From positions 188,693 to 252,692 of the forward strand of contig NZ_KE384473.1 in the NCBI RefSeq assembly GCF_000425905.1: a DNA stretch of 64,000 nt. The letters run 5' to 3'. The notes beneath the pieces are model-generated. The model saw only the letters and a list, made by a program, of their open reading frames with translations. It searched no databases and was not told the DNA's origin. The translations under genes were made by a program, and so were the position numbers. The stretch is from Lactobacillus psittaci DSM 15354. Lineage in GTDB: Bacteria; Bacillota; Bacilli; Lactobacillales; Lactobacillaceae. Below are positions 59-62,300 of this stretch, piece after piece (position 1 is the stretch's first letter; every line of letters starts with the position of its first letter).

Positions 59-148
59 ATGGAGTTAATAAGATATCTATTGATTTTAGGACTTAGCTAT
101 ATAGGTGTAACGCTATATTATTATATTAAAGACAAGCGTAAAAAATAG
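59..148 (+). CDS. 29-aa single-span membrane micropeptide (copy 1)
   Basis: The ATG is preceded at 8 nt by AAAGGAG (44-50). The product is one hydrophobic stretch (about residues 5-22) followed by the charged tail IKDKRKK, so it should sit in the membrane with a basic tail. A sister copy of identical length and tail lies at 1012-1101, and the DNA around the tail and stop is nearly the same in both. The stop codon sits in an A-run/T-run hairpin that could act as a weak terminator. The architecture (short, one span, charged C-terminus) recalls type I toxins of the Fst/Lpt group, but there is no clear residue match. Function unknown. It stands upstream of the small basic proteins at 257 and 493. 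Confidence 0.55.
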   Translation: MELIRYLLILGLSYIGVTLYYYIKDKRKK

Positions 149-256
149 CATTTTTTATTGTTAAAATAATGTATTTTGATTTATAAAGGGTTGTTAAATT
201 CATTAAAAGGTTTAACCTATAGATGGTTGGTATAAAGATTAAAAATGAGGTGTGCA

Positions 257-484
257 ATGGTATTAACTAATGCAGAAAAGCAGCGGCGCTACCGCGAAAG
301 GCTTAAGGCCAAGGCTGCTAAAGGTGATATAAAAGCAGTAGAATTAATTAGGCAGGACAAAAAAGCACAATATTTCAGAAGTGCAAAAAGTTTTATTAAA
401 AACCATGCGACTTTGGAACAGTTAACTGTTTTGCGTGAGATAATTTTGAATCGTGAAAAATATTTGAAAGAAAACAATAAATAG
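257..484 (+). CDS. Small basic protein, family A (75 aa)
   Basis: Function not recognised. The ATG at 257 is chosen because GAGGTG (247-252) lies 4 nt upstream; an in-frame ATG at 245 overlaps that ribosome site. The protein is very rich in Lys and Arg and looks all-helical. An N-terminal basic patch (KQRRYRERLKAKAAKGD) is followed by AKSFIKNHAT and a C-terminal helix LREIILNREK. Paralogues follow at 493-732 and 1187-1438, with a shorter relative at 2100-2291. The basic head plus helix suggests nucleic-acid or membrane-surface binding, but this is inference. The next gene begins 8 nt after the stop, so the two are probably co-transcribed. Confidence 0.65.
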   Translation: MVLTNAEKQRRYRERLKAKAAKGDIKAVELIRQDKKAQYFRSAKSFIKNHATLEQLTVLREIILNREKYLKENNK

Positions 485-492
485 GGAAATAA

Positions 493-732
493 ATGGTAAT
501 GGTTCAATCAAATTCTGAAGCAAGTAAAAGATATAGAAGTAATTTGAAAATCCGTGCGGCTGCTGGTGATAAACAAGCAATAGAACAACTTGAAAAAAAT
601 AGAAAAAATCAACTTTTTAGAAATGCAAAAAGCTTCATTAAAAATCATGCAACTATAGCACAAGCACGGGAAATTAGGGAGTTAACGTTAGAGCGCGAAA
701 GAGAGCTAAAAAATACAAAAGTAGACTATTAA
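493..732 (+). CDS. Small basic protein, family A (79 aa)
   Basis: Paralogue of the preceding gene. It shares the order basic head (RYRSNLKIRAAAGD), AKSFIKNHAT near the middle, and a C-terminal Glu/Arg-rich helix. The start is ATG at 493 behind AGGGA a few bases upstream; ATG at 499 is an alternative. The 8-nt gap to the upstream copy indicates an operon of two tandem duplicates that have diverged mainly in the first 15 residues. No terminator is obvious after it. No known domain is recognised and no function is proposed. Confidence 0.6.
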   Translation: MVMVQSNSEASKRYRSNLKIRAAAGDKQAIEQLEKNRKNQLFRNAKSFIKNHATIAQAREIRELTLERERELKNTKVDY

Positions 733-867
733 GTGGTTACAAGGTAAAGAAAAAGCTTATAGAAAGAGTTGTTTTTTTAATCAGTAAGCGAAAAAAAGAT
801 TGCTAATAAAGATAAGGCAGAATTTGGATGGTGCTATTACTGCGATTTTTGGGGGTGAGAAAATAAA

Positions 868-942
868 ATGAATATAATTATTGTAGCGTTATTAGTTTCG
901 ATGATTGCTTATGTTTTTTCATCAGATGAACATCATAAGTAG
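868..942 (+). CDS. 24-aa hydrophobic micropeptide
   Basis: A short frame starts at ATG 868 behind a strong GGGGGTGAG site (851-859). It codes for a hydrophobic segment (about residues 2-17) ending in SSDEHHK. It differs from the 29-aa peptides at 59 and 1012 but lies in the same array and has the same one-span plan. With only 24 codons, coding status rests on the ribosome site and on the neighbourhood. Function unknown. Confidence 0.4.
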   Translation: MNIIIVALLVSMIAYVFSSDEHHK

Positions 943-1011
943 CACTTGTTTGATTTAATAACGTGGATTTATAAGATTTATAAATTATCAAATAAGAATA
1001 AAGGTGAAAGT

Positions 1012-1101
1012 ATGGAATTAGTAAGATACTTAATCAGTTTATTTATCGCTACAATTCTAGTAAATGGATATTTTTATATTAAAGACAAGCGCAAAAAATA
1101 G
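1012..1101 (+). CDS. 29-aa single-span membrane micropeptide (copy 2)
   Basis: Starts at ATG 1012 behind AAGGTGA. It begins MELVRYL, carries one hydrophobic span and ends in the same IKDKRKK tail as the peptide at 59-148, with identical length (29 aa). A preserved length and tail over about 1 kb of duplicated DNA argues that the frame is real. The last codons and the TAG form the left arm and loop of a GCGC hairpin followed by T6, so the coding end and the transcript end coincide. Function unknown; it may be a type I toxin-like or signalling peptide. Confidence 0.55.
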   Translation: MELVRYLISLFIATILVNGYFYIKDKRKK

Positions 1102-1112
1102 CGCTTTTTTAT
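1087..1112 (+). terminator. Terminator overlapping the micropeptide stop codon
   Basis: AAGCGC (1087-1092) pairs with GCGCTT (1101-1106) across an A-rich loop and is followed by a T-run. The stop codon of the 29-aa peptide (1099-1101) lies in the loop and 3' arm. Confidence 0.6.
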
Positions 1113-1186
1113 TTCCTTCTATTAACTTAAAAATGTAGTTTTAAATATAGTAGAATTTATAATAAAAATATAGAGGTGAACAAAAA

Positions 1187-1438
1187 ATGACAGATTATAA
1201 GTTGAGCGAAGAAAAAAGAGAGTATTATAGAAGAAAACAAAGAGAATATAGAGAACGTCTTAAGAAAAAGGCAGAAACTGGAGATATGGCTGCAACTCGT
1301 CAAATCCAAAAAAGTAAAGAAAAGACAGGTTTTTATAAGGCGAAGAGTTATATTAAGACTAAGGCAACTGAAGAAGAGCTATCAATACTTCGGCAGGCAA
1401 TTCTTGATCGAGAAGCGCTCTTAAAGAAGGAAAAATAA
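1187..1438 (+). CDS. Small basic protein, family A (83 aa)
   Basis: Third full-length member of the small basic family. The ATG at 1187 follows AGAGGTGAA. The N-terminus is extended by YYRRKQREYRERLKKKAETGD, followed by YKAKSYIKTKAT (the family signature AKSFIKNHAT) and a helix ending in REALLKKEK. The pattern of helix, conserved GD, AKS-Y/F-IK and terminal R-E helix is constant across the copies while the flanks vary. Upstream lies a micropeptide (1012-1101) and downstream another (1490-1576), repeating the pairing seen at 59/257. Function not recognised. Confidence 0.65.
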   Translation: MTDYKLSEEKREYYRRKQREYRERLKKKAETGDMAATRQIQKSKEKTGFYKAKSYIKTKATEEELSILRQAILDREALLKKEK

Positions 1439-1489
1439 GTTCATCATGCCAAAATAATTTCACATCCGATAATGAATAGGAGTTAGAAT

Positions 1490-1576
1490 ATGAAAAAGTG
1501 GGAAGGGCCTTTTTATGTAATCTTATTTATTGTGGCTTACATATATATTCACATGAAAAACAAAAGAAAGAAGTAA
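1490..1576 (+). CDS. 28-aa single-span micropeptide (copy 3, diverged)
   Basis: ATG at 1490 follows AATAGGAGTTAGA. The peptide begins MKKWEGPF, has a hydrophobic span (about residues 8-21) and ends MKNKRKK, a tail close to the DKRKK tail of the other two copies. It lies 51 nt after a family A gene. The common plan across three loci supports it as a real but uncharacterised membrane peptide. Confidence 0.5.
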   Translation: MKKWEGPFYVILFIVAYIYIHMKNKRKK

Positions 1577-1671
1577 CAGGTAGCATATTATAGGCAAAAT
1601 ATTAGACTTAGTGGCGACTCCCTTAGGGTATCGTTATGTTTTCAAAAATCTAATTAGGAAAAATAGTATTT

Positions 1672-1707
1672 AAAATCATATTTCGATTTTTTGAAATATG
1701 ATTTTTT
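1672..1707. terminator. Terminator-like hairpin
   Basis: AAAATCATATTTC (1672-1684) pairs with GAAATATGATTTT (1693-1705) and T-runs flank it. It may end transcripts coming from the micropeptide/small-protein array. Confidence 0.55.
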
Positions 1708-2045
1708 AATACCCCAAAGCTTTAGATTTTGTAGTTAATTCTCTGAAAAAAGCATACAAATAACTTAATAATATCTATATATCTATAAAATAGTTAACGC
1801 CAATATACCTATAAAGCTATAGGAGGTACCAAAATTATATTTAACTCAAAAATCCTTGATATATCAGCAAAAAATTAAGCATCCTTACAAGAAATGTTCT
1901 TGTTTTTGCAAGTAATAATTTATATAATATGCTTGTGTGGAACCTATTTTCATAAAAATTATCACTGATAATTTTTATGCATATTAGCTACTACATATAA
2001 AGCGTATGTTGTTTCGCTTATCTCATACAATGAATGAAGTATGAC

Positions 2046-2087
2046 GATTCTGAAACTATTGGGAGTATAGATTAAGGTTTCAGAATC
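2046..2087. promoter_or_regulatory. 11-bp inverted repeat abutting a ribosome binding site
   Basis: GATTCTGAAAC (2046-2056) and GTTTCAGAATC (2077-2087) are perfect inverted copies separated by 20 nt. The right arm ends just before TGGGGGAG, the ribosome site of the gene at 2100. It could be an operator or an RNA hairpin controlling that gene. Confidence 0.5.
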
Positions 2088-2099
2088 TGGGGGAGTATT

Positions 2100-2291
2100 A
2101 TGGCTACTAGTGAAGCGCAAAAACGCGCAAATCGTAAATGGCGCTCTAAGAATAAGGAGAAACAGCAACTCTATAATCATCGATCAACTGCTAAGCGCTT
2201 TGTTAAAAGATATGCTAACATTGATGACTTAATTGAGCTAGAAAATCTTATTCATGAGCGTCGACAAGAATTAGAAGAAAAGACTAGTTAA
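2100..2291 (+). CDS. Small basic protein, short family A relative (63 aa)
   Basis: ATG at 2100 lies 5-6 nt after GGGGGAG. The protein is highly basic at the N-terminus (KRANRKWRSKNKEK), then has HRSTAKRFVKRYANIDDL, which lines up with the AKSFIKNHAT segment of the proteins at 257, 493 and 1187, and a final helix LIHERRQELEEK. It lacks the middle GD-x-x-A part of the longer members. It stands alone behind an 11-bp inverted repeat and ends in its own terminator, so it is probably an independently controlled gene. Function not recognised; DNA or RNA binding is a guess from charge. Confidence 0.65.
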   Translation: MATSEAQKRANRKWRSKNKEKQQLYNHRSTAKRFVKRYANIDDLIELENLIHERRQELEEKTS

Positions 2292-46136: not shown

Positions 46137-49100
46137 ATGAGAGTTTCTAAAAATAATTTGAAACACCGGTTAGATCAAGAAGCTAATCGTGTTCAACATT
46201 TTAGTATTAGAAAATTAAGTATAGGAGCAGCTTCTGTTTTATTATCAACATCACTATATTTGGGAGTTAATAGTGGTCATATGGTAAAAGCAGATACTAC
46301 TTCTGAATCTTCAACAGAACAAAGTGGCTCAGGTAGTTCAACTACTTCTGATACCCAAGATACAAACGCATCATCTACCGAAGTGAGTTCAAGTGATAAG
46401 GCAGTGGCTACTACAAGTTCACAAGTAGCAACTAATTCAGATAGTGCTGAAAAGGTAAGTACAGATAGTGCCACTCAAAGCGCAAACGAAAAGACTACTG
46501 AAAAGTCAAATGCAAGTGCAACTACATCTACTTTAGACGTATCAAGCTCAAAAAACACTACTAATTCAGCTTCAACTTTAGCTGATAGCAAGGTTGCAAA
46601 TACTAATGCATTAGAATCAAATGATGCGGCTTTTACAGCTGATAAAACTACCATTGGTAATGATGGAACAAGCAAGGGTATTACTTTAAGCTTAAATCTT
46701 ACTGCTAAAGCCGGAGATGTAATTACAATCAAGATTCCAAAAAGTAGTGCTTACAAAATAGGTACTGACGACTTTGAATCCTTAAATGGTACCGGTACCA
46801 CCACTTTTGATGATAGCAGTGATTCCGGCTACTATATAATTACTGATAAAATCACTCAAGATGGAGCACAATTTACGCAACGAATTAATTTGTCACCATT
46901 AAGTAACTTTACTGGACAACCATTGAATGGTAACAAAGCAATAAATCCAATTACTGATGTTGGTACTAAAGAGTTACAAGCTTCATTGACAATTGTGGAT
47001 AAAAATGGGGTTCAAATTGGATCAAAGACTATTAACTACCAATCCATCATTAGTCCACAAATGCATCCATCATTTTCTCGTAAGCCTACTTCTACTGGAG
47101 TACCATCAGTTTTGCCAAAGACAAATTACACTTACTACTTAAAAGTTGGTGAAGTTAACGGGCTTCAAGATAGTACTACTGCTCAATCTACGTTAATTAA
47201 TTCAGCCGTTAACTATGGGGCAACCATTACAATTCCAGTTCCAGAGGGATTTGTCTTAGATCAAACTGCTACTAATGATAAGAATAACTTTGCTGATGGC
47301 ACAACTATCACTCAAAGTGGTAATGTGATTACAATTACAGTACCAAAGGGTGCAGGTAATCAACATTTCCAAAGTACAAATCCGGATGGATATGCCATTG
47401 TAGGTTACTATAATGTGGATCAACCTGAAGAAGATACTACCATCAAGGCATCAGGAGATATTACTATTACTCAAAAAGTTGATGCTAATGGTACTTTACT
47501 TACTTCAAGCTTACCAGCATGGACAGAAACTATTCGTGGTGCTAAGAATACAAGTGTATATGGTGACTTTGGCTCTTCAGCAGCTTCTAATTCAACTTCT
47601 GGGGAATTGTTAATTGATGGTGATCCAGGAAGAATCGCTAGCTTTGGCTTTACCAATAATACTGCCATTGCCTTAAGTAAAGCTGAATTTACTATTAAGA
47701 TGGCTGATGGCCTTTTGACTACGTCAATTGCAACTCCAGCTAAGTCAGCTGATTTAGAAGGCTTAACTAGCTACACTTATACCGCAACCTACACTGATGG
47801 CACTACTTCAACTGGTAGTGTAGACGCAGGTGGTACAGTTACAGCTGAAAATGGCAAATATATCAGTCAAATTGTCTTTAATCCTAATTATGTTCCTGCA
47901 GGTGCAAATGCTCAGGCATCATATTATGATACTAATAAGCTTCAGTTTGTCGCTTATGGTACTGTGAGCACAAAATATAAAAACGGAACAGTAACTAAGG
48001 CAGGAGATAAGTTAGTTTCATCTATTACTGTTACTAGTCCAGAAATCAAGAATAAAGATAATGCCCAAGTTTTTAATACAAGTGCTGCTACTAACGTTTT
48101 AATTGATCAATCTGGTTTAACTACAAGTAACAACTTCTATTTATATCAGAATAACCAAAAAGCTTCATCAAATGCTGGTTTTGTAGCAACTTATAATTCT
48201 GGTGCTTCCAAGACTGTTAACTATGCCAAAAACCCTATTATTTATTATGTCTTGCCAGAAGGGACCATATTTAATGGGACTCTTAAGAATGTTCAGGGTA
48301 ATCCAAAATTCTCTACTTTTTGGGTAGGAAACCAGCAAGTCATTAAATTTGACTATACTGGAACTAACTTTAAGTACGATACTACTCAGACCACTAACTG
48401 GGCTTACCTTTCAATCTTACCTACTGTAACTAGTGGTACTTATCCAATTGTTGCATATATGACTACCAGCACAGGGATGAATTCAACAAGTAATCCAGCT
48501 GTATCTACTATCCAAGGCTTCAATAGTGCCTTTACTGAAGGTAATGTTGACAATACTTACCAAATTGGTAAGCAAACTTGGACAATTAACTTAGCTAGTG
48601 AAATTTATCCTGCTGGTCTTGCTAAAGGAAATAAGGATACTAACTATTCAAGTACTGGTACTTCTGATGATAAGGGAAGTACTGAATTAAATTACGAAGT
48701 TGAAGTAGTCAATGGTACTAAGGATGCCCAATCTGCAACAGCAACAGATGTCAACCTTTATGTCAACTTGCCAACCGAAGTCAACTTTAAGTTAACTGGT
48801 CCTATTAGTAGTAACAACAATGGTGAAACTATTCTCTACAGTACTACTGCAGTTACTTTGGGAACTTCTACTCAGCCAGATACAAGTAATTGGCTAACAG
48901 CTGATCAAGTGACTGATTGGTCAACAATTAAAGCTTTTGCAATCAAGATTCCTAAGATTAGTGCTAATAGTAACAGTGGTTTGTATAAAGTTACTGGTAT
49001 TGATTCTAACTTAGCTGCTGATGCAGGTAAGACCGCATACCTTGAATTTGAAAGTTATCACGGAAATGATGATGTACCATCTGTTGTTCAAAAGGGCGCA

Positions 49101-52100
49101 GATTCATTTGCTCCTGCAATTACTATTTCAGGCACTTCAACTATCAAGACTGCACTTAAATATACTGATGCTGATGGTCAAACTCATACTGTAAACTTGA
49201 ACTACACTAAGCAATACCAAGATAATTCATCAACTATGAGTTATAGCGATTTCCCAAGTGCAATTTCTGGTTTCAGTAGTGAAGACCAAGCTACTATCAA
49301 TGCTTTAATTGCTAAGGGCTACAAGTTTGTTCCATTAAGTGATACTAATAACACTATCTTGGATAACGGTGGTAAAACTTGGCAATCTGATTCGACTAAT
49401 AATCCAGATGGCAGTGCAGCTTGGGGTAGTCAAGTTAAGTACTACTTCGATGGTGATACTGTAGTTTACAAATTAGAACACAATACAGTTGATGTAACAC
49501 CAAACGATGGTAAATCTTCAACTGACAAGATTCCAAATTCAGAAAAGAACTATCCTGATGGTGTTACTAACCAGGACTTAACTAAGACTGTTACTCGTAC
49601 GATTAATATCTACGATAAAGATGGCAAGACTATTGTTAATACCATTAAGCAAGATGTTAAGTTCAAGAGAACTGCCCACATTGATGCCGTAACTGGTAAG
49701 ATTACTGGCTACAGTGACTACTCAAGCTTTGATGACAACAATGGTCAATATAGTGAACAAAGCTTTGATACACCAGCAGGTTACACAAGTCACGTTACCT
49801 ACACCAACTTGAAGTCAACTGAAGATGGTGTTACTGCAGTTAAGAGTGAATCAGCTTTGGTTAACAAAGTGCCAACTGATGAAACTGTTGATGTCACTTT
49901 TACACCAAATAAGGAAAGTGTAAATGTTAGATATGAAACTGCTGATGGTAAGACATTAGCTGACTCAGATACCTTAACTGGTGATTACGGAACTAACTAC
50001 ACCACCAGTGCAAAGCCAGTTAAAGGTTATACTTTAAAGACAACTCCAGCTAATGCTACTGGCACTTACAGCACAAAGAATGATGATGTTGTTTACATTT
50101 ACGCACCAGATACTGAAACAGTAAATGTTAAGTACGTAGATGCAAACGGCAAGGAAATAGCATTATCAGACAGTAAGAGCGGTGACTACGGTACCACTTA
50201 CACTACCAGTGCGAAGACTATTGACGGTTACCACTTAACTAATACTCCATCAAATGCCACTGGAACTTTCACCACTACTAACGATGACGTTGTTTATACT
50301 TACGCTCCAGATAAGCAACAAATCACCATTGTTGTTACTGACAGTTCAACTGGTGAAAAGGTTAATGTGTCAATTCCAACTGACGTTGCAACTACCACAT
50401 TTACTGGTGACTCTAATAGTGATGTTCCATCTAACGTAACTACTAATGTTGACAAGGTTAAGGAATACTTGAAGTCTAAGGGCTACACAGTTCCTGAAAC
50501 TATCACAATTCCTACTACCTTTGACAGTACTCCAAATGGCACTTCAGAGACTGATGCTAACCCGCAAACAATTACTATCGAAGTTGGTCATAACCACACA
50601 GCAACTGACAAGACTATCACTAAGACCATTACTTACAAGACTGATGAAGGTGATAGTGTTGCAGATAACTACACTCAATCAGTAACTATTCATAAGGACA
50701 CTGATGATGTAACTGGTAATTCAACTTACACTGTTGATGGCAAGACTCTTGAAAATGGTAAAACTACTTTAGGTTCACAAAGCTTGCCTTCAAAACCTGG
50801 TTACTACGCTTCAACAGTTCCAGAAGGAGCAACTAGTGATTCAACTGTAAGTTTTGATTCCGACAATGTAAATGTAAACGTAGTTTACAAAAAGCTTGGT
50901 AAGATCATTCCAGTTGACGAAAAGGGTAACCCAATCCCAGGAGCAGATACTCCAACTTATAGCAACAACAGTGATGATCCAACAAAGGCTGGTGATACAA
51001 CTACACCGACAGTTCCAGGTTACACAGCAAGTAAGACTACTGTTCCTGGTAGTGAAATCACTAACCCGGGTGAAGATACTAAGGTAACTTATACTGCAAA
51101 TCCTCAAACTATCACTATCAAGTACGTTGATGATGACAACAAGGGCGCGCAAGTAGGCACTGACCAATCAGTACCTGGTAAGACTGGTGAAACAGTAACT
51201 CCAACTTACACTATTCCAGAAGGCTACGATTACGTATCTGGTAAAGTTGATAGTCACACTATGACTGCTGACGATAATACTGTTATTACCGTTCACTTGA
51301 AGCACCATCACACTACAGCTGACAAGAAAATCACTAAGACCATCACTTACAAGACAGATGAAGGTGATAGTGTTGCACCAGATTACACTCAATCAGTAAC
51401 TATTCATAAGGACACTGATGACGTAACTGGCAAGCCAACTTACACTGTCGATGGTAAGACTCTTGAAAATGGTCAAACTACTTTAGGTTCACAAAGCTTG
51501 CCTTCCAAAGATGGCTACTACGCTGCAAATGTTCCAGAAGGCGCAACTAGTGACTCAACTGTAAGTTTTGATTCCGACAATGTGAATGTAAACGTAGTTT
51601 ACAAAAAGCTTGGTAAGATTATCCCAGTTGACGAAAGTGGCAACCCAATCCCAGGAGCAGACACTCCAACTTACAACAACAGTGATGATCCAACTAAGCC
51701 TGGTGATACTACCACACCAACAGTACCGGGTTACACCGCAAGTAAGACAACTGTTCCAAGTAGTGATATCACTAACCCTGGTGACAATACACCGGTAACT
51801 TACACACCAAATACTCAAACTATTAAGGTGGTTGTAACTGATTCAACTACTGGCAAGACAATTACTGTCGATGTTCCAACTAGCTTTAACGGCAAGAGTG
51901 ACGAAAAGGTCGGTACAGATGTTACTGATGGTGTCCAAAATGTTGTTAATACTTTGAAGAAGCTTGGTTACACAATCACTAATCAAGGTGAAACTCCAAC
52001 TAGTTTTGACCACAGTCAAAATGAAAGTGCAGATTCTGACAATAACCCTCAAGTAATTAACATCACTGTTGGTCATAACCACACAGCAACTGACAAGACT

Positions 52101-55100
52101 ATCACTAAGACCATTACTTACAAGACTGATGAAGGTGATAGTGTTGCAGATAACTACACTCAATCAGTAACTATTCATAAGGACACTGATGATGCAACTG
52201 GCACTTCAACTTACTCAGTCGATGGCAAGACTCTTGAAAATGGTACTACTACTTTAGGTTCACAAAGCTTACCTTCAAAGGCAGGTTACTTTGCAGCAAC
52301 AGTTCAAGAAGGAGCAACTAGTGATTCAACTGTAAGTTTTGATTCCGACAATGTAAATGTAAACGTAGTTTACAAAAAGCTTGGTAAGATCATTCCAGTT
52401 GACGAAAAGGGTAACCCAATCCCAGGAGCAGATACTCCAACTTATAGCAACAACAGTGATGATCCAACAAAGGCTGGTGATACAACTACACCGACAGTTC
52501 CAGGTTACACAGCAAGTAAGACTACTGTTCCTGGTAGTGAAATCACTAACCCAGGTGAAGATACTAAGGTAACTTACACTGCAAATCCTAAGACCACTAA
52601 CATTGTCTTCAAGGATCAAGACAATAACAATGAAGTGGTTAAGACTGTTCCAGTAGATGGTCATACTTCAGAAACTGTTAATGTTGATGGAACTAAGACC
52701 ACTATTCCTGATGGTTACGAATTAGTTCCTGGCAATACTGTTCCACCTACTATTACTTTTGCTGGTGGAAATGAAACAACTCCAGATACAGTTGTTTACC
52801 TCAAGCACAAGACAACAACAGTTACACCAGATACTGATACCACTAAGACTTTGCCAGATAATCCAAAGAAGAATTATCCAACTACTGAAGTTTTAACTAA
52901 GACAGTTACTAGAACAATCAACGTTCACAACACTGATGGCTCTGTAACTACTGAACCTCAACAAGTTAAGTTCACTAGAACTGCAACAGTTGATGAAGTA
53001 ACAGGTGAAGTAACTAACTACAGCGATTGGACTGTTGATACTAGTGATAGCAAGCCTTCAGAATTTGAAGCATACAACTACACAACTCCATCTGGTTACA
53101 CTAGCAAGGTTGCTTACAACACTACTGAAGACAAGGCTCAAGCTGGTAATGGTACTGTTGCTAAGGCCGACGCAAGCATTACAACTGATGGTAAGACCAC
53201 TCCAGTTGAAGGTGGAACCGTTGATGTATACTTCGTTCCTGAAAAGCAAACTATTACTGTTACTGTAACTGATCAAGATGGAAATCCTGTTGTAATTCCA
53301 ACTGATATTCCAACAATCTTTAACGGAACTACTAACAGTGAGGTTGGTACTGATGTAACTGATGGTGTAACTAACATCACTACTTACTTAACTCAGCACG
53401 GTTATGAAGTAACTAAGCAATCAGAAACACCAAAGAACTTTGATGATACTGATAACACTGGTAAAGATAGTGATCAAACTCCACAAAATATCTCAATCAC
53501 TGTAAAGCACAAGACTGTGGATGTAACACCTGACAAGCCAAAGACAACTACTGATAACTTGCCAGATAACCCTGATACTAAGTACCCATCAGGCGTAACT
53601 GAAACTGACCTTAACAAGACAATCACTAGAACTATTGTCGAAGTAGATCCTGTAACTGGTGAAAAGAAGACAGTTGCCACTCAACCAGTACACTACACTA
53701 GAACTGCAACAGTTGACGAAGTAACTGGCAAGGTAATTTACACTGACTGGGCTACAACTGATAAGTGGGATGCATACACTCCAACTAACAAGCCTGGTTA
53801 CACACCAAGTCAAGACAAGGTTGACGAATCAACACCATCAGTTGATGATTCAGACCAAACCGTAACTATTACTTACAGTGCAAACCCAACCAATACTACT
53901 GTTGTCTTCGTTGATGATAATGATGGTGGTAAGACTGTTAAGACAGTTACAGTTAACGGTACAACTGGTGGAACTACACCACTTTCAGATGATGAACAAA
54001 AGATTCCAGATGGTTATGAATTAGTTCCAGGTAACACCGTACCAACTGAAATTAAGTTCAATAATGATGGTAGTCAAACACCAAGTACGACTGTTCACTT
54101 GAAGCACAAGACTACAACAGTAACTCCAGACAGTCCTAAGACTACCAACGACACCTTACCAGACAACCCTGACAAGAAGTATCCATCAGGTGTATCTGAA
54201 ACAGACCTTAACAAGACAATCACTAGAACAATTGTCGAGGTTGATCCATTAACTGGTGAACATAAGACTGTAGCAACTCAAACTGTTAAGTACACTAGAA
54301 CTGCAACAGTTGATGAAGTAAACGGCAAGGTAATTTACACTGACTGGGCTACAACTGACAACACTTGGCCAGAATACACTGCAAGTAAGAAGACTTTCTT
54401 CACTCCGTCTCAAGAAAAGGTATCTAGTCAAGAAGTTCCAGTAACTGGTACAGATACTACTGTAACTATCACTTACACCTTGAACCCAGATGGTGATCCA
54501 AGCTTTAACTTCTTCTTCTACGATGGTGGAGATTCTAGTGAAAAGCCAATCATCAGCGGTAAGATTCCAGTTAAGGTTGTTGATGGTAAGGTTGTAATTG
54601 ATACTGACAAGATTAAGACCATGATTCCAAAGGGTTATGAACTTATTCCTGGCAAGACAATTCCAACTGATCCGGCTAGTCTAGAAAAGACTTCAGATGG
54701 TACTTATAAGTTGCCAATTCCACTTCAACACAAGACTGTGGATGTAACACCAGACAAGCCTGCCAAACCTGGTGACAAGTTACCTGATAACCCAGATAAG
54801 ACATACCCAGATGGTGTTGAAACTACTAAGACAGTTACTAGAACAATCAACGTTCACAAGCCAGACGGCACTACTGAAACTACTAAACAAACAGTAACTT
54901 TCACTAGAACTGTGACTGTTGATGAAGTAACTGGCAAGGTTGTTAAGACTACCGACTGGACTTCAACTAACCCAGATTACCCAGAATACACTGTACCGGC
55001 TGTTGACGGCTACACTCCAAGTCAAACTACAGTTGAAAAGGTAACACCAAAAGCTTCTGACAATGATTCAACTGTTGACGTAACATACACTGGCAACGTT

Positions 55101-55949
55101 CAAACTATCAAGGTAGTTGTAACTGACAAGACTACTGGTAAGGAAGTTACTGTTGATGTACCAACTACTTTCGACGGCACAAGTGATAGCAAGACTGGTA
55201 AAGATGTTACTGACGGTGTTGAAAAGATTAAGGATTACTTGAAAAAGAAGGGTTACTCAGTCCCAGACAAGATTGATATTCCATCTACTTTTGACCACAG
55301 TCAAAACAAGGACTCAAAGACTGACGATCACCCTCAAGTAATTAACATTAGCGTGGATCACACTTACTCATCTTCAACTGAAAGTAAGACTGTCACTAGA
55401 ACCATTAAGGTTGTTACTCCAGATGGCAAGACTACAGAAACAAAACAAACTGTAACTTATACCAGAACAGTAACTACTGATAATGTAACTGGTCAATCAA
55501 CTACAACTAACTGGTCAACAACTGATAAGTGGAGTAGTTTCACCACACCAACTATTCCTGGCTACACACCTAGCCAAAGTAAGGTTGATGAAAAGACTCC
55601 AGCTGTTGATGACAAGGATGAAACTATTACCATCACTTACACTAAGAATGCTAGTCCAGTTAACCCAGTTAAGCCGGTTAACCCAGTTAAGCCAAATAAG
55701 CCAACTGATAAGGACAAGTCAAATAAACATCAGACAAATAACAAACAAGTTGTTCCTAACAACTCTGGTAAGTCAGACGTAAAGGTTACTAAGAAGACTA
55801 ACGCAAATAGCGGAAGTAGAAAGTTAGCTAACCAAGATAAATTACCTCAAACAGGTAATAAGGCCGAAGCACTTACCGGTTTAGGGCTAGCTGGTTTAGC
55901 ATTAGCTGGCTTGTTAATGTTTGGTGCTAAGAAGCGTAAGGATGACTAA
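46137..55949 (+). CDS. Giant YSIRK/LPQTG mucin-binding-type surface protein (3270 aa)
   Basis: Sortase-anchored adhesin, likely to bind mucus or host glycans. The YSIRK-type signal (FSIRKLSIGAASVLLSTSLY) is followed by a cleavage region near VKA (residue 52). Next come a Ser/Thr-rich stretch to about 165, a large N-terminal region (to about 1110), two MucBP repeats (about 1260-1324 and 1327-1391; DYGTTYTTSAK) and then many Mub B2-like repeats to about 3165. A Pro/Lys/Asn wall-spanning stretch precedes LPQTG (from residue 3236), a hydrophobic span and the tail KKRKDD. Three repeat units are nearly identical at DNA level. ATG follows AAAGGAT. No frameshift seen. Confidence 0.95.
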   Translation: MRVSKNNLKHRLDQEANRVQHFSIRKLSIGAASVLLSTSLYLGVNSGHMVKADTTSESSTEQSGSGSSTTSDTQDTNASSTEVSSSDKAVATTSSQVATNSDSAEKVSTDSATQSANEKTTEKSNASATTSTLDVSSSKNTTNSASTLADSKVANTNALESNDAAFTADKTTIGNDGTSKGITLSLNLTAKAGDVITIKIPKSSAYKIGTDDFESLNGTGTTTFDDSSDSGYYIITDKITQDGAQFTQRINLSPLSNFTGQPLNGNKAINPITDVGTKELQASLTIVDKNGVQIGSKTINYQSIISPQMHPSFSRKPTSTGVPSVLPKTNYTYYLKVGEVNGLQDSTTAQSTLINSAVNYGATITIPVPEGFVLDQTATNDKNNFADGTTITQSGNVITITVPKGAGNQHFQSTNPDGYAIVGYYNVDQPEEDTTIKASGDITITQKVDANGTLLTSSLPAWTETIRGAKNTSVYGDFGSSAASNSTSGELLIDGDPGRIASFGFTNNTAIALSKAEFTIKMADGLLTTSIATPAKSADLEGLTSYTYTATYTDGTTSTGSVDAGGTVTAENGKYISQIVFNPNYVPAGANAQASYYDTNKLQFVAYGTVSTKYKNGTVTKAGDKLVSSITVTSPEIKNKDNAQVFNTSAATNVLIDQSGLTTSNNFYLYQNNQKASSNAGFVATYNSGASKTVNYAKNPIIYYVLPEGTIFNGTLKNVQGNPKFSTFWVGNQQVIKFDYTGTNFKYDTTQTTNWAYLSILPTVTSGTYPIVAYMTTSTGMNSTSNPAVSTIQGFNSAFTEGNVDNTYQIGKQTWTINLASEIYPAGLAKGNKDTNYSSTGTSDDKGSTELNYEVEVVNGTKDAQSATATDVNLYVNLPTEVNFKLTGPISSNNNGETILYSTTAVTLGTSTQPDTSNWLTADQVTDWSTIKAFAIKIPKISANSNSGLYKVTGIDSNLAADAGKTAYLEFESYHGNDDVPSVVQKGADSFAPAITISGTSTIKTALKYTDADGQTHTVNLNYTKQYQDNSSTMSYSDFPSAISGFSSEDQATINALIAKGYKFVPLSDTNNTILDNGGKTWQSDSTNNPDGSAAWGSQVKYYFDGDTVVYKLEHNTVDVTPNDGKSSTDKIPNSEKNYPDGVTNQDLTKTVTRTINIYDKDGKTIVNTIKQDVKFKRTAHIDAVTGKITGYSDYSSFDDNNGQYSEQSFDTPAGYTSHVTYTNLKSTEDGVTAVKSESALVNKVPTDETVDVTFTPNKESVNVRYETADGKTLADSDTLTGDYGTNYTTSAKPVKGYTLKTTPANATGTYSTKNDDVVYIYAPDTETVNVKYVDANGKEIALSDSKSGDYGTTYTTSAKTIDGYHLTNTPSNATGTFTTTNDDVVYTYAPDKQQITIVVTDSSTGEKVNVSIPTDVATTTFTGDSNSDVPSNVTTNVDKVKEYLKSKGYTVPETITIPTTFDSTPNGTSETDANPQTITIEVGHNHTATDKTITKTITYKTDEGDSVADNYTQSVTIHKDTDDVTGNSTYTVDGKTLENGKTTLGSQSLPSKPGYYASTVPEGATSDSTVSFDSDNVNVNVVYKKLGKIIPVDEKGNPIPGADTPTYSNNSDDPTKAGDTTTPTVPGYTASKTTVPGSEITNPGEDTKVTYTANPQTITIKYVDDDNKGAQVGTDQSVPGKTGETVTPTYTIPEGYDYVSGKVDSHTMTADDNTVITVHLKHHHTTADKKITKTITYKTDEGDSVAPDYTQSVTIHKDTDDVTGKPTYTVDGKTLENGQTTLGSQSLPSKDGYYAANVPEGATSDSTVSFDSDNVNVNVVYKKLGKIIPVDESGNPIPGADTPTYNNSDDPTKPGDTTTPTVPGYTASKTTVPSSDITNPGDNTPVTYTPNTQTIKVVVTDSTTGKTITVDVPTSFNGKSDEKVGTDVTDGVQNVVNTLKKLGYTITNQGETPTSFDHSQNESADSDNNPQVINITVGHNHTATDKTITKTITYKTDEGDSVADNYTQSVTIHKDTDDATGTSTYSVDGKTLENGTTTLGSQSLPSKAGYFAATVQEGATSDSTVSFDSDNVNVNVVYKKLGKIIPVDEKGNPIPGADTPTYSNNSDDPTKAGDTTTPTVPGYTASKTTVPGSEITNPGEDTKVTYTANPKTTNIVFKDQDNNNEVVKTVPVDGHTSETVNVDGTKTTIPDGYELVPGNTVPPTITFAGGNETTPDTVVYLKHKTTTVTPDTDTTKTLPDNPKKNYPTTEVLTKTVTRTINVHNTDGSVTTEPQQVKFTRTATVDEVTGEVTNYSDWTVDTSDSKPSEFEAYNYTTPSGYTSKVAYNTTEDKAQAGNGTVAKADASITTDGKTTPVEGGTVDVYFVPEKQTITVTVTDQDGNPVVIPTDIPTIFNGTTNSEVGTDVTDGVTNITTYLTQHGYEVTKQSETPKNFDDTDNTGKDSDQTPQNISITVKHKTVDVTPDKPKTTTDNLPDNPDTKYPSGVTETDLNKTITRTIVEVDPVTGEKKTVATQPVHYTRTATVDEVTGKVIYTDWATTDKWDAYTPTNKPGYTPSQDKVDESTPSVDDSDQTVTITYSANPTNTTVVFVDDNDGGKTVKTVTVNGTTGGTTPLSDDEQKIPDGYELVPGNTVPTEIKFNNDGSQTPSTTVHLKHKTTTVTPDSPKTTNDTLPDNPDKKYPSGVSETDLNKTITRTIVEVDPLTGEHKTVATQTVKYTRTATVDEVNGKVIYTDWATTDNTWPEYTASKKTFFTPSQEKVSSQEVPVTGTDTTVTITYTLNPDGDPSFNFFFYDGGDSSEKPIISGKIPVKVVDGKVVIDTDKIKTMIPKGYELIPGKTIPTDPASLEKTSDGTYKLPIPLQHKTVDVTPDKPAKPGDKLPDNPDKTYPDGVETTKTVTRTINVHKPDGTTETTKQTVTFTRTVTVDEVTGKVVKTTDWTSTNPDYPEYTVPAVDGYTPSQTTVEKVTPKASDNDSTVDVTYTGNVQTIKVVVTDKTTGKEVTVDVPTTFDGTSDSKTGKDVTDGVEKIKDYLKKKGYSVPDKIDIPSTFDHSQNKDSKTDDHPQVINISVDHTYSSSTESKTVTRTIKVVTPDGKTTETKQTVTYTRTVTTDNVTGQSTTTNWSTTDKWSSFTTPTIPGYTPSQSKVDEKTPAVDDKDETITITYTKNASPVNPVKPVNPVKPNKPTDKDKSNKHQTNNKQVVPNNSGKSDVKVTKKTNANSGSRKLANQDKLPQTGNKAEALTGLGLAGLALAGLLMFGAKKRKDD
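50583..51103 (+). repeat. Adhesin repeat unit, copy 1
   Basis: In-gene repeat coding for the TKTITYKTDEGDSV and LGKIIPVDEKGNPIPGADT modules. The first 127 bp are identical to copy 3 at 1485 bp distance, and the last 280 bp differ from it at about two positions. Confidence 0.85.
51297..51814 (+). repeat. Adhesin repeat unit, copy 2
   Basis: Offset 714 bp from copy 1, with more substitutions and one codon deleted in the NNSDDPTK segment. Confidence 0.8.
52068..52588 (+). repeat. Adhesin repeat unit, copy 3
   Basis: Nearly identical to copy 1 in its first and last parts; the middle has diverged. Confidence 0.85.
53505..55090 (+). repeat. Adhesin B2-like repeats, second set
   Basis: Three units spaced about 600 bp, starting near 53505, 54102 and 54726. 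Each begins with HKT followed by VTPD-x-P and contains LPDNPD, TRTI and TATVDEV or TVTVDEV segments. Less uniform than the set at 50.6-52.6 kb. Confidence 0.75.
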
Positions 55950-56383
55950 TTAAATATTCAAATGAAAAAGACTCGAAGAAATTCGAGCCTTTTTTTCTTG
56001 GATATTTTTCAAAAAAATAAAAAAATATTTGGATGATTAAATTAGATAATTTTTTAGAAGGTGTTATTTAATAAAACTCGAAAATTCATAAAATGTTCGA
56101 AAAAGCAAGCGCGATTAGATAAAAAAGAATACAAGTTAAAATATTAAACCTTGTTATCTCAACACTTTTGGATGGTCAGAAAATGTTACATATTTTTTTG
56201 TGCAATTATGAATAAAATAACATTTTCTTGAATTAGTAATTTGCCCATAAAATTAAAAAAATTTTTTTGAATATATTTTGTTATTTATAGTTTTTATTAA
56301 ACATATTCATATTAAAAGTATTACAATAATATTGTATGGATATCATTATCCTTATATAGGTTTTGATCTTAGGAGGTTTAAAT
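55950..56383 (+). other. 434-bp A+T-rich intergenic region between the adhesins
   Basis: No gene is supported. It holds the terminator of the first adhesin and, 48 bp before the second, TACAAT-AAT-ATTGTA (56322-56336), a small dyad that may be an operator or part of the promoter. The rest is very A+T-rich with no readable signal. Confidence 0.6.
55965..55996 (+). terminator. Terminator of the first adhesin
   Basis: AAAAAGACTCGAA and TTCGAGCCTTTTT form the stem with a T-run. Confidence 0.88.
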
Positions 56384-59300
56384 ATGGGGGTATCCAAAAA
56401 TAATTTTAGAAATAAAATGGAACAGTCATCACGACAGGTTCAACACTTTGGGTTCCGTAAGTTCTCAATTGGGTTGACCTCTGTTGTTTTGTCTACTTCC
56501 TTATATTTTGGTATGGGTTCAGGAGCTGCTCAAGCTACTACAACCCAAAATGGTGTAACTGAAGGGGAGCAATCTTCTGAAGTAACATCAAGTTCTAGCA
56601 CAGATTCGGCTCGAGCCGAACTGAGCAAGAAAATTATTAATGAAAAAGCTGACAAGACAGATTTACAAAAGCTTTATGATGAAATCATTAAGAGTGAAGT
56701 AAAAGATCAATTGGCTTCACAATTAACTTCGGTAAAATCTATTCTTGAAAATGATAGCGCTTCACAAGCGGAAGTTGATACTGCTTTAGCTAACTTAAAG
56801 CAAGCTTATGTCAAGGCTTTGAGCGATAATGCAAAGAAGCAAGAACAAGCAACTAAGGCTAGTGAAGCAGGAGCTACTAACACTGAAAATAGTGCTAAGC
56901 AAGCAACTCAAGCTCAAACTACTAGCATCTCAGTTGCTGATACTGGCACTAAAGTTGCAAAGCCAACTACCTTAGTTTCAACAACTGGTGAAATGAAGGT
57001 CGTTGACAATTCTGGTGCTGAAGTAACCAAATTAGAAGTGGCTAATAATGGTGATAGATCTGGCAAGATTAATCCATTTGTAAGTTTGACAGCTACCGAT
57101 GCAAATACAGATAGTAATCAAGCTACTGGTACTGATCAAAATCAGCAACAAGCTCAAAACGGCTCAAACGCTTTAACTGCTACTGAAAGTGCAACTACCA
57201 CTAATGATCAAGGTATTCAAACTTCATCTGTTGAATTCACTAACGATGATAAGGGTACCCAGGTTATGTCTGGTCCTGTTTTGCTTGATACTTCTATTGG
57301 TAAGAACACTGCAGGTTCACAAGAATTTAAAAATAATTCTCATAACGATGTTTTTGTCAAAGTTACTATGACAGGTAAGCAGGGAGACAAGGTTGTCATT
57401 ACTGCCCATAGAGCGGTTGGTACAGAAATCCAAACAGATCGTGCAGCCTTACCACCTGCAATTTCACTTTCAAGTGAAAAGAAGCTAGAAGATGGTGGTA
57501 TTGAGCTTACTTATACATTCTCTCAAAATACTTCTGGTGCAGTTTATTTGGAAATTCTAAACCAAGCAATGCACAGTTCTGGTATGCGTGATTTTACTTC
57601 AGATGATTTAGGTACTACAAATCACACAATTGAAGTAACTAGAAATGGTGTCAAAGAAACAACTGCAACTTATCAAGTAAAGATTAATGAAACAATTGGT
57701 ACGCAACTTTCACCATATCGTGGTGAAGATCTTGAAGCAGCAGATCAACGTATTCCACTTGCACCTAACCATGATGCAATTTTCCACATCATTGCACGTG
57801 ATCAAGTTGGGATTATGACCAATGATGGCTCTAGTTCATATAACAAGGTTTATGCTGGAACTAACTATGGTGCTACCATTAGAATTCCAACTCCAGATCA
57901 CTTTGTCTTAAATCAAGCAGCTTCAATGAACTTGAACCACTTTACTAATGGTGAAACTATCACCCAAGAAGGTGGAATGGGTGGCGATATCGTTATTACC
58001 ATTCCAAAGGGAGCGGGAATTAATAGTACTTCTTCTGACAAAGAATCTTATGGCTTTGTCGGTCAATTTAAGTATTCAGATAGTGATGCTCCTGAGACCA
58101 ATACTGTGGTTTGGGCAAAACAAAAGCCAACTTATACCAAGATAATTGATGATAAAGGCACAACTATCAGTAGTAATGATAATGATGGTCAATATATTTG
58201 GTACTTTAGTGACAAAATCTTAGGTAAAAAGGAAAAGGCTGCAGCTGACGAAGCACAAAAGCGTATCGATCAAGCAATTAAAGACGGAAAAACTCCTGAC
58301 CAACAAGATCAATCTACTGTTGATCAAACATTAGGTACTGTTACTACTTCTGGTGAAGCAAAGCGTGCAAATGACCAAGTATATCCAGGTAAGGAAACCG
58401 ATGATTACTTAGGTAAATTTGATGTTAAAACCAATGTGGGTACTCCATTTGGTGATAGTACAGCTCATATTACTATGACCTTTACCCCAAATGAAAATGT
58501 TTACCGTATCACCACGCCAGAAAGTCCAGCTTACAATTCAACTGGTGCATCAACTTATAGCTATGAAATCACCCGTGCTGATGGTACTAAGCAAACTGGT
58601 ACAGTTAAGGCCGGAGAAGATATTGTTAACCAATCTAAATCAGGTATTACTTCAATTAAGGTGACCCCAGATTACTTTGGTGATAGTGTAGATACTTCTA
58701 AGGGTCGTTCATTTGAATACTATGGTAAGGTTGTTGGTGCTAATGATGATGGTTATACACCAACTCATACCGGTGACACTTTAACTTCCAATATTAGTTT
58801 TGATGGTACTGGAAATGGTGATAACTTCAAGTCATTTTCTTCAGCTGTTACTCAAACTGCCGTAGGAACTATTGGAGGAGTTCAGGTTGTTTCACCTACA
58901 TGGGTTGGGACACCTGGTAAAATCACTGTTTCAGCTGAATTAGGATTTAATAATACTGGATCCACAAAAGCAAATTCTGGTATTCTTCATGAACCAACTA
59001 TTTACTATGTTTTGCCAGATGATGTTAGTTATCAATCAGTTTCGATGTCTGGTGGTACGGTTCAGAATACTGGAGTAGAAATTACCAATGCAGCAGGTGA
59101 AAAAACTACTGTATATCCAAAGATTTCAACTTTCACTAGTTCTGATGGTAAGATGGTCCTTAAGGTTGATTACAAGGGAACTGGAGCTGATTATAACTTC
59201 GAACAACCAGAAGGTAAGCGATTGCAAGCTTGGTTTACACCTTCATTAGGGATTAAAAACGGCACATATAAGATTCCTATATACATTAGTACAAATTCTG

Positions 59301-62300
59301 ACATCGACACAGTCCTTGATCCTAAGGCAGATGATATGGCAACTAAGTTAGGAATCAGCGGACAGCCTCTTTATTATGTAGGTACACAAAATTTTGCTAT
59401 TGCAATGGGGGATGCCTTAACTCAAAGTAGTGGTAGTGCAATCTTTGACGATCCATTCCAGATTAAAACGAACGTTTCTAAGACTGATTCTAGAGTTAAA
59501 GCTTTAGTCGATCAAAACAAGCCAATTCCAATGAAGTTCTCATTTGAGGCAACTAACTATAAGCAAAGTTCACTTAAGAATGTTCGTGCTGTTATTAACG
59601 TTCCTAAGGAAGGTGATAGTCTAGACGATAAATTCGACTTTGATTTAACTGGTCCAATTACTGTCCCTTCTGGCTTATCTGGAGTAAAGGTTCTATATTC
59701 AAATGATGAATTTGATTTAAAGAACCAGGATGCAATAAATAATATTAACTTAAGTAACTTTACTGAAAATCCAACTGATTGGTCTAAAGTTCGTTCAATT
59801 TATATTGAAATTCCAGAGGTAGGACAAGGACAAGGCTCCGGTAAATTTATTATTAATGGTCAAAATTCAAACTATAATTTCTATGGTGGCCAAGACATTC
59901 TGGGAAGCAGTATTGTTGCCGATGGGTTGAAGCCATTAGTAGTTAATACGGAGTCTGTAGGTACAGCTACTGTTTCTGCTTCAATTGCAGAAAAATTCCC
60001 GGTAACTGTTAAGACTGGCGTTCAATTCCCAGAAACAGATGGTCAGAATAAAGATTATCCAGACTTTGATTTGAGCCAAACTAAGGAATTCGATGAATAT
60101 GCAGGAGCAGGTTTCTCTAACTCTGATTTCCCAGATGAATGGGCCTTAGATGCAGTTAACCCAGCAACTCATGAAACTATCAAGTCAGAAAATTATGCCG
60201 TTGCTAAGAAGCTTTTATTTGCAAAACGTTATTCAAGTGATCCATATGTTCAAGTTGACTGGCCAGTTACATCTGTTCGAAATACTTACAATGAGTACAA
60301 GGTTGTCTACGTCTTAAAGAAGATGAATGTTACTGGTGCCATCAAGTATGTTGATGATGACAACAATGGTAATGTTGTAACTGAACAAGACTTCACACAA
60401 GCACCAGGTTCAGATGTAACAGTAACACCTGAAAACACACCAAACTCATCATTCTATAAACTTGCCGACGGAAGCAACAGCCCAATTCCAACTAGTTTCA
60501 AGGCTTCAACTGGTGACCAAGTAATTCACTTGAAGCACAAACACTCAACTAAGGATGTAGCTGTAACTAGAACAATCACAGTAAATTACCCAGATGGTAA
60601 AGTTCCAACTAACCTTACTGCTGATACTGATGGCGTTACTACCACTACTAACGGTAATACTGTAATCCGTACTTACACTACTCACTTTACTAAGGATACT
60701 GACTTAGTAACTAAGAACGAAACTTATTCTTCAGCTACTGGTGCTGTTAACTGGCCAGCAGCAAGCGAAGGCAACAGTGATATCATCCCAAGTATTGATG
60801 GCTATTACACTAATATTACTGGTGATACCGGTTCAACTATTAATGCTGAAACTCCAACTTACAATACTAAGAACGAAAACTACACTGTTAACTACGTCAA
60901 GAATGCAACTATTCAAATTCAAGCTTGGGATGTCCACAATGGTGGTAAGACTGCTATTAACTTAACTGGTTTAACTACTACTGTTTCTGGTAAGCAAAAT
61001 GATGCAGTTCCAGCAAGTTTGAATTCTGATATTGAAACAATTAAGAATGCTTTAATTGCTAAGGGTTACAAGTTTGTAAATAACTCAAGCATTCCAACTA
61101 GCTTTACTTCAGCTGGTCAAGTTGTTGACTTAAACTTCGATCACAACACTAAGGATTACCATCCAAATGATCCTGATTTACCAACTGATCCAGCAACTCA
61201 TAAGCCAGTTGTCTTAACTGCTACTGCAACTCGTAAGATTGTTATTAACTATCCAAATGCTACTGATGCAGCTAAGTTTGCAGGCCGTGCAGGTGTTACT
61301 GTTAACGGTAAGTCACTTGTTTGGACTCAAACTGTACAATCAACTAGAAATGCCACTAAGGACTTAGTAACTGGCGATATTACTTATGACCAACACTGGA
61401 CTGTACAAGGTACCGGTGCTTTGGCTGGTCTTACTTACAAGACTGACGACTTATTACCATATATCCAAGGTTATGATCCAAATCCTGAAACTGTAACTAG
61501 TCAAACGATTAATGACGATACAGTTAACAAGGACTTTGGTACCATCAACATTGACTACAATGCTGTTAAAGGTGACGGCAAGGTTGTCTTCTACGATGCT
61601 GACAAGAACAATGAAGTCGTTAAGACTGTTTATGTTCACGCTCTAGAAGGTGATACTTACAACTTAACAGATGGTGAAAAGGCTATCCCTGAAAACTATG
61701 CCTTAAAGTCAGGCAGCACTGTCCCTGATTCAGTAACAATTAAGACTGGTAGCGACAACATTACTCAAGTTTACCTAGTTCATCAAACTCAACACGTTGA
61801 TACTGTTAAGGATGTTGTCAGAAATATTCACGTAACTGAACCTAATGGCTCAACTCACGTTGATACTGACAAGGTAACCTTCCATGTTTCATATGACCTT
61901 GATAAGGTTACTCAAGAACACAAGAATGAAACAGTTGCTGAACCAAGCTTAACCTTTGCTGACAAGGCAAGTGCATATCCAGAACATAAAGATGGATACA
62001 CCAGAAGCGTAACCCCAGGTGACGGTTTAGGTGCTAAGACTGTAACTTCAAGTGACTCAAGCTTCGACGTATACGTCAACTATGCTGCTGATGATCAAGT
62101 AATTGAGGTTCAAGCCTTTGACCGTGACAATCTCGATAAGAGTGGTCAACCAACTACAATTGCTATCCCAGCCTCAGTTATTAAGACTTTAACTGGTAAG
62201 AGTGGAACAACAGTTGACAGTTCTCAACTTCAAGGCGTAATTGATGGTATTAAGGATTACCTTGAAAAGAATGGTTATAAGTTTAGTGATATTGGTACTG

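Follow-up and report, generated by a model that had tools for sequence, protein, structure and literature searches.

Why should a row of very small genes stand directly behind a CRISPR (clustered regularly interspaced short palindromic repeats) array? The question is raised by positions 59-2291 of a 64,000-nucleotide stretch of the Lactobacillus psittaci DSM 15354 genome (assembly GCF_000425905.1, contig NZ_KE384473.1, positions 188,693 to 252,692 of the forward strand), which as a whole is called the window below. A sequence-only reading had described there four small basic proteins (here B1-B4) interleaved with three single-span micropeptides (M1-M3) and a fourth hydrophobic peptide (M4), and all eight frames are indeed present, in the sequence as well as in translation. 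The answer that we favour, tentatively and at somewhat less than an even chance, is that they make up a cassette of phage-type small genes kept by selection where a type II-A array ends, distal to its leader. Two things appear to be new here: the connection of the phage protein family PHROG 2277 with a solved anti-CRISPR protein, and a micropeptide family for which no report was found.

Micropeptides at the tail of the array

The CRISPR locus itself lies upstream in the same contig, outside the window, where cas9 (1390 residues), cas1, cas2 and csn2 (confirmed by Pfam) are followed by the first repeat; an anti-repeat resembling that of a tracrRNA (trans-activating CRISPR RNA) is located between cas9 and cas1. 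The window begins at the other end of this type II-A array, with the terminal repeat (6-41, + strand), which is identical in 34 of 36 bases to the first repeat behind csn2. M1 (59-148; like all genes of the cassette, on the + strand) encodes a single-span micropeptide of 29 residues and starts 17 bases past the terminal repeat. These 17 bases hold a GGAG ribosome site and are too few to accommodate a separate M1 promoter; a promoter scan, which is a weak method, found no + strand promoter-like site upstream of window position 1122. M2 (1012-1101, 29 residues) belongs to the M1 family, and M3 (1490-1576, 28 residues) is the one closest to the copy in a sister genome, G022. A K-x-K-R-K-K tail is common to M1 and M3, encoded with four synonymous codon changes and followed by a different stop codon. 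M4 (868-942), a hydrophobic peptide of 24 residues with a strong ribosome site, has nothing obvious in common with M1-M3 and gave no match in Pfam or in phages, to which its searches were confined.

The frames of M1-M3 are not a product of chance. A filter that jointly demands a ribosome site, a hydrophobic span and a basic tail is passed by these three only on both strands of the 64 kb window, and by none of 1000 Markov sequences modelled on the region and read on the + strand. A first pass with a hydrophobicity threshold of 12 for the span had caught M1 only, and the threshold was then reduced to 11; an earlier, differently built filter caught M1 and M3. In 356,485 bases surrounding genes related to the basic proteins two frames passed, and in 387,701 bases of control loci one did, which was M3 itself in an overlapping locus.

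A profile built from five micropeptide copies was searched in 397 Lactobacillaceae genomes, and at E < 1e-10 it found two: the genome of the window, whose three copies have E-values from 3.6e-14 to 3.9e-12, and G022, whose two copies have 7.8e-14 and 8.7e-14. Seven further genomes came under E 0.01, the best at 0.0028. With a three-sequence profile, the same two genomes were the only ones under 0.001 among 75 of the genus, G022 at E 8.5e-8, and this relative in another species shows the micropeptide frames to be conserved beyond the duplicated DNA. All five strong copies lie directly behind the array, the position in G022 being deduced from contig ends. No relatives were found of M1 and one G022 micropeptide in phages or of M3 in plasmids, and the literature matches listed, as distinct from their full texts, gave no report of small genes following an array of type II-A. 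Among the genomes searched, the micropeptides are a small family that two species share and that is restricted to the tail of one type II-A array.

By its cas genes, G022 has the closest of 20 other loci (Cas1 92, Cas9 70 and Csn2 77 percent). Its cas contig C20 breaks off after 30 bases of the same repeat, counted from the repeat's start, and its contig C11 starts inside that repeat, from which we infer that the two flank one array. Behind it, three micropeptide genes with ribosome sites (locus L158, 91-198, 272-349 and 383-484; protein ends RDER, NNRKK and NKRKK) are followed at 559-1187 by genes for an 89-residue protein of helix-turn-helix (HTH) appearance, with no Pfam match, and a HicB-like protein (PF15919, E 6e-8). 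Terminator-like hairpins and a decayed repeat occupy the vicinity of 1389-1465, the repeat itself (1430-1465) retaining 28 of 36 bases, and a gene of the phosphoenolpyruvate (PEP) synthase type comes next. Downstream of the L. psittaci cassette, from 2529, lies an operon for a galactitol-type phosphotransferase system (PTS) and an aldolase (Pfam: EIIA, EIIC-GAT, DeoC/LacD aldolase). Since G022 has the PEP synthase-type gene and not the PTS operon at this place, the micropeptides are linked to the array and not to its flank. As a separate observation, the cas regions of the two species (L006 2275-8528 against L045) are unevenly similar, with Cas1/Cas2 92-94 % identical, Cas9 70 and Csn2 77, which would fit either a mosaic locus or uneven constraint.

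The basic proteins and the C-terminal domain of AcrIIA32

B1 (257-484, with an alternative in-frame ATG upstream at 245), B2 (493-732) and B3 (1187-1438) represent a long form of one family, and B4 (2100-2291) is a canonical member of 63 residues. All four match phrog_2277 (E 6e-11, 2.6e-4, 3.6e-5 and 8.9e-21 for B1-B4), so that the earlier assignment of them to a single family is borne out; it had recognised no known family, but both PHROG 2277, a phage family with no function assigned, and the AcrIIA32 C-terminal domain discussed below are recognisable by profile search. What distinguishes the locus from PHROG 2277 elsewhere is the presence of four copies together, three of them in the rare long form. 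A search with B2 retrieved B1 and B3 (50 and 38 percent identity), and B4 only at E 0.35. The family alignment is centred on a core around R/K-S-x-A-K/R-S/R-F-I, and B1-B3 are longer by an insertion of about 14 residues. Two helices (7-23 and 27-75) are predicted for B2 from its single sequence (mean pLDDT, the predicted local distance difference test, 84.8; predicted template modelling score, pTM, 0.48), and Foldseek returned no matches to this model.

A match to a solved structure was obtained with a 20-member family profile, which aligns with the C-terminal 52 residues (90-141) of PDB 8ye6 chain B, named A32, from Streptococcus uberis (E 1.4e-15); B4 alone matches this chain at E 2.8e-5. 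From its name and from the available part of PMC13089141, A32 is taken to be AcrIIA32, which that source counts among the anti-CRISPR proteins solved in complex with Cas9 and describes as contacting the sgRNA (single-guide RNA) nexus. The homology is confined to residues 90-141: B1-B4 (63-83 residues) have no counterpart of AcrIIA32 residues 1-89, the N-terminal part to which an unfused homologue corresponds, and they are encoded by a bacterial host, next to a CRISPR array. As far as the accessible text of Song et al. (PMC8934645) goes, AcrIIA32 is fused with Aca13, by implication its C-terminal part, and AcrIIA32.1 is unfused and inhibits similarly. Fused and split forms are also found in phages. 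In S. uberis phage 700P1, a 141-residue frame of the AcrIIA32 make-up lies within a longer listed frame; in S. equinus phage Javan213, the domain is a separate gene of 63 residues directly before a 95-residue homologue (43 percent) of AcrIIA32 1-89. Taken with PMC8934645, these arrangements point to Aca13 as the most likely identity of the basic family. Aca13 is described as devoid of an HTH in the portion of PMC9765179 consulted, and Pfam found no domain, HTH or other, at E 0.01 in any of 20 members of the basic family.

No credible family for the basic proteins came from Pfam, NCBIfam or PADLOC. The candidates discarded as sub-threshold were elongation factor P for B1 (E 0.0068) and two PADLOC models with one member each (E 0.024 and 0.033). 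In NCBIfam, B2 alone reached two sigma-factor models, likewise below threshold: one at E 5.2e-4, with 19.7 bits where the cut-off is 204, and one at 0.0035. A search of the literature for phrog_2277 by name yielded no paper.

The basic family is widespread. It was found in 30 of the 75 genomes of the genus (E to 0.01) and in 171 of 397 Lactobacillaceae genomes from 28 of 40 genera (E to 0.001), this sample and that of the micropeptide search being two of the same size and make-up. In phages phiadh, phiJB, Listeria B025 and YMC-2011 it lies between the lysin and attP (the phage attachment site) or the integrase, antisense to annotated genes in B025 and unannotated in YMC-2011; in other phages it also occurs in replication and accessory regions. 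In phage P5641, a member stands three genes behind AcrIIA6 (183 residues, E 4.8e-115 to solved AcrIIA6). The long form of B1-B3 has a sole other strong match in the 397 genomes, on contig 33 of G018, where the locus is prophage-like and both terminase genes are about 4 to 7 kb away. No relative was found of B2 in phages and plasmids, of B3 or the long-form alignment in viral contigs, or of the long-form alignment in a scan of genome contigs; a scan of viral contigs with B4 gave one locus, which was judged false by eye (the basic stretch of an endonuclease VII-like protein). Two side observations belong here. The AcrIIA32 C-terminal domain is N-terminal in a 120-residue protein of phage Javan617 (L110 382-744) with a different C-terminal part, which makes this protein a possible further anti-CRISPR candidate; and G018 contig 33 (L043 960-2640) carries prophage-like cassettes of small genes, several of them led by a segment around TTGACAATCCGTTATAACGGAT.

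CRISPR loci are only occasionally the neighbours of this family. Basic-family genes stand on both sides of the type II-A locus of G046 (L044 4158-4358 and 16446-16643), one shortly 5′ of cas9 and the other some kb past csn2 and the array, and a further gene stands right behind a type II-A array in G232 (L103 8290-8472). The idea that PHROG 2277 is generally CRISPR-linked was rejected: among the matches listed, about 60 are in genomes for which a Cas1 is also listed, and one of these lies within 10 kb of it, as counted by eye against a rough hand estimate of about 0.5 by chance. The basic proteins are linked to CRISPR only loosely, by no rule and near chance, and the linkage of the micropeptides differs from this.

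Substitution counts suggest constraint at the protein level on B4, on B1/B2 and on M1/M2. The proportions of synonymous and nonsynonymous changes (pS/pN) are 0.95/0.21 for B4 against its G022 relative, 0.73/0.36 for B1-B2 and 0.57/0.26 for M1-M2, the last over 29 codons only.

Possible decayed repeats, hairpins and other frames

Along the + strand the cassette reads M1, B1, B2, M4, M2, B3 and M3, with B4 set apart at the end by 523 bases. The frames are interleaved, as had been claimed, but given this order and the gap before B4, the alternation of basic proteins and micropeptides is loose.

Two possible decayed CRISPR repeats, both weak, were detected on the + strand between the genes, one at 174-210 (core GGTTGTTAAAT; score 15, about the 95th percentile of the null) and the other at 750-797 (score 16, about the 99th percentile). 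The former is the region's best partner for the tracrRNA anti-repeat, at -21.2 kcal/mol; random 40-mers have their 1 percent point at -18.7 and a minimum of -26.1, uncorrected for the places scanned. The decayed repeat of G022 is significant, with a local score of 20 versus a null maximum of 17 in 500 sequences. Guide seeds of at least 8 bases taken from the two decayed repeats of the window have no match to the locus, and the guide of the G022 decayed repeat has a single match of 9 bases, to a terminator motif; this test covers the decayed repeats, the guide of the terminal repeat being readable for five bases only.

A terminator-like hairpin (1087-1106, no strand) spans the M2 stop codon with a z-score of only -1.5, and DNA resembling it is present also 3′ of M1 and 3′ of one G022 micropeptide. 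Terminator-like sites number five in the region versus 0.9 in shuffled sequences. Promoter-like sites number 12 versus 12.9 in shuffles, and in the G022 stretch six versus 9.8. Rfam gave three chance-level matches in the region, far under gathering scores, and in the G022 locus one tRNA and nothing else. Just 5′ of the B4 ribosome site there is a perfect inverted repeat of 11 bp with a 20-base loop (2046-2087, + strand; z-score -1.8), possibly an operator or an RNA hairpin. It is no general feature of the basic family, and the idea of an autoregulator was set aside as not convincing, inverted repeats with arms of at least 9 being found in 6 of 97 upstream stretches versus 2.5 percent in Markov sequences.

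Elsewhere in the window, two giant frames follow each other at 46137-55949 (3270 residues) and 56363-64000 (at least 2546 residues, running off the window); their size suggests adhesins.

Accessory genes, cargo or toxins

In the favoured reading, with phage-type genes kept by selection at the array end, the message for M1 is probably the 3′ end of the array transcript, or else RNA started at a promoter within the final repeat-spacer unit. M1-M3, each with a putative single membrane span and a basic tail, would resemble small membrane-active peptides or toxins, and the basic proteins, which most likely bind nucleic acid or the Cas9 complex, would modulate the expression of their neighbours. The arrangement suggests either an undescribed CRISPR-locus accessory or well-kept phage cargo. 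The earlier proposal of an undescribed system holds good for the arrangement, which is unusual and of which no description was found; it falls short in that the basic proteins belong to a known phage family and that the context, a CRISPR array outside the window, had escaped it.

Several findings count against a selected role at the array. The micropeptide evidence comes from two related genomes, that is, from one line of descent, and the array tail of G022 is devoid of a basic protein. G022 has a promoter-like site (9/12) ahead of its first peptide and past the repeat, at L158 33-61. Basic-family genes were encountered at one of the 20 other CRISPR loci of the genus (G046) and in one genome of the wider family (G232). 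B1 alone has no match to 8ye6, and the domain need not act on Cas9, because AcrIIA32.1 inhibits similarly without Aca13 in what PMC8934645 reports in its available part. Such peptides are present in none of the 18 other CRISPR trailers scanned. Of 24 genomes of the genus with csn2, 20 of the 23 others were fetched and three left out; 17 of these 20 could be scanned, three contigs ending too early, and G232 was added. The 18 trailers yielded some small frames, of which a few have a hydrophobic stretch and none has the basic tail. The small-frame scan is insensitive, the basic gene of G232 with its weak ribosome site having been missed, and it is the profile searches that carry the point.

The same genes may be passengers, and we consider this a strong rival, if somewhat less likely than the favoured reading: a remnant of phage anti-CRISPR or associated genes would have recombined into the CRISPR end with no role in CRISPR, the micropeptides being phage-type orphan peptides. 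The positions of PHROG 2277 in phages argue for such an origin, several having it in the interval from the lysin to attP or the integrase and two having it near acr genes, as do the prophage-like setting of the long-form relative and the spread of the family over 171 of 397 genomes, mostly away from CRISPR in the compared cases. Against it stand the open frames with ribosome sites and the signs of constraint; the micropeptides, moreover, were not found in phages (M1 and one G022 copy) or plasmids (M3), and they are conserved at the same spot in G022 beside other neighbours. Far less probable is the proposal that each membrane peptide is a toxin fixed to a basic antitoxin or immunity protein. 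The interleaving and duplication that prompted it are seen in this one genome, and the pairing is unconserved both ways: of the 171 basic-family genomes, the window genome and G022 alone have micropeptides, and in G022 the B4 relative (68 percent in the alignment) is a single gene away from the CRISPR contigs (L025 1504-1692), with asnA on one side and a nitroreductase-family gene on the other. Each partner does without its counterpart, and the basic family, being of phages, is known from another context. The conserved pairing and the fixed toxin-antitoxin module of the sequence-only reading are unsupported for this reason; it had named the occurrence of basic proteins without micropeptides and a lack of conservation of the micropeptide frames beyond the duplicated DNA as grounds against itself, and the former was found, the latter not. 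Fst and TxpA/BsrG are single-span type I toxins silenced by antisense RNA. That M1-M3 are toxins of this kind is very improbable, although they resemble them in length, single hydrophobic span and charged, basic tail, and although a bidirectional terminator-like hairpin covers the M2 stop, with such sites more numerous than in shuffles. Unlike those toxins, they are tied to a CRISPR array and have no RNA family match, Rfam being at chance level and promoter-like sites at shuffle level; profiles of toxin families were not part of the search.

Two further explanations would make the micropeptides toxins controlled by the CRISPR system itself. In the available parts of PMC9458426 and PMC12737573, CreTA and CrePA have crRNA-like (CRISPR RNA-like) antitoxins, CreTA with degenerate repeats, and the scaRNA (small CRISPR/Cas-associated RNA) of Francisella provides a precedent for Cas9 repressing a gene via a degenerate repeat. 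By analogy, Cas9 with a crRNA-like guide that has a degenerate repeat would repress the micropeptides, and an anti-CRISPR would release them. Small toxin-like membrane peptides 3′ of a repeat, the significant decayed repeat of G022 and the possible ones in the window fit this mechanism, which we nevertheless regard as unlikely. Where guides could be read, at the decayed repeats of the window and G022, none of them matched a promoter, and the toxin cases named in the consulted portions of PMC9458426 and PMC12737573 use Cascade-type effectors; here the locus is type II-A and holds several membrane micropeptides. It is improbable to a slightly greater degree that the micropeptides are the last cistrons of the array transcript and act as an alarm, with the terminal repeat as their leader. 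That repeat would be bound and cut by tracrRNA, RNase III and Cas9; a phage disabling Cas9, for example by an anti-CRISPR, would leave the transcript unprocessed or derepressed and hence translated, and the released peptides would stop the cell. The host would have copied the Aca13-type partner of that anti-CRISPR, and the whole would correspond to CrePA in a type II-A setting, its toxins being peptides.

Should the favoured cassette work together with its CRISPR locus, protein-coding genes read from a type II-A array's tail would join the CRISPR accessories, and the locus would offer a host-side test bed for the unexplained Aca13/PHROG 2277 family. Even if it is cargo, a common phage family of lactic acid bacteria is tied here to an anti-CRISPR whose structure is solved, and the function of the family thereby becomes open to direct tests.

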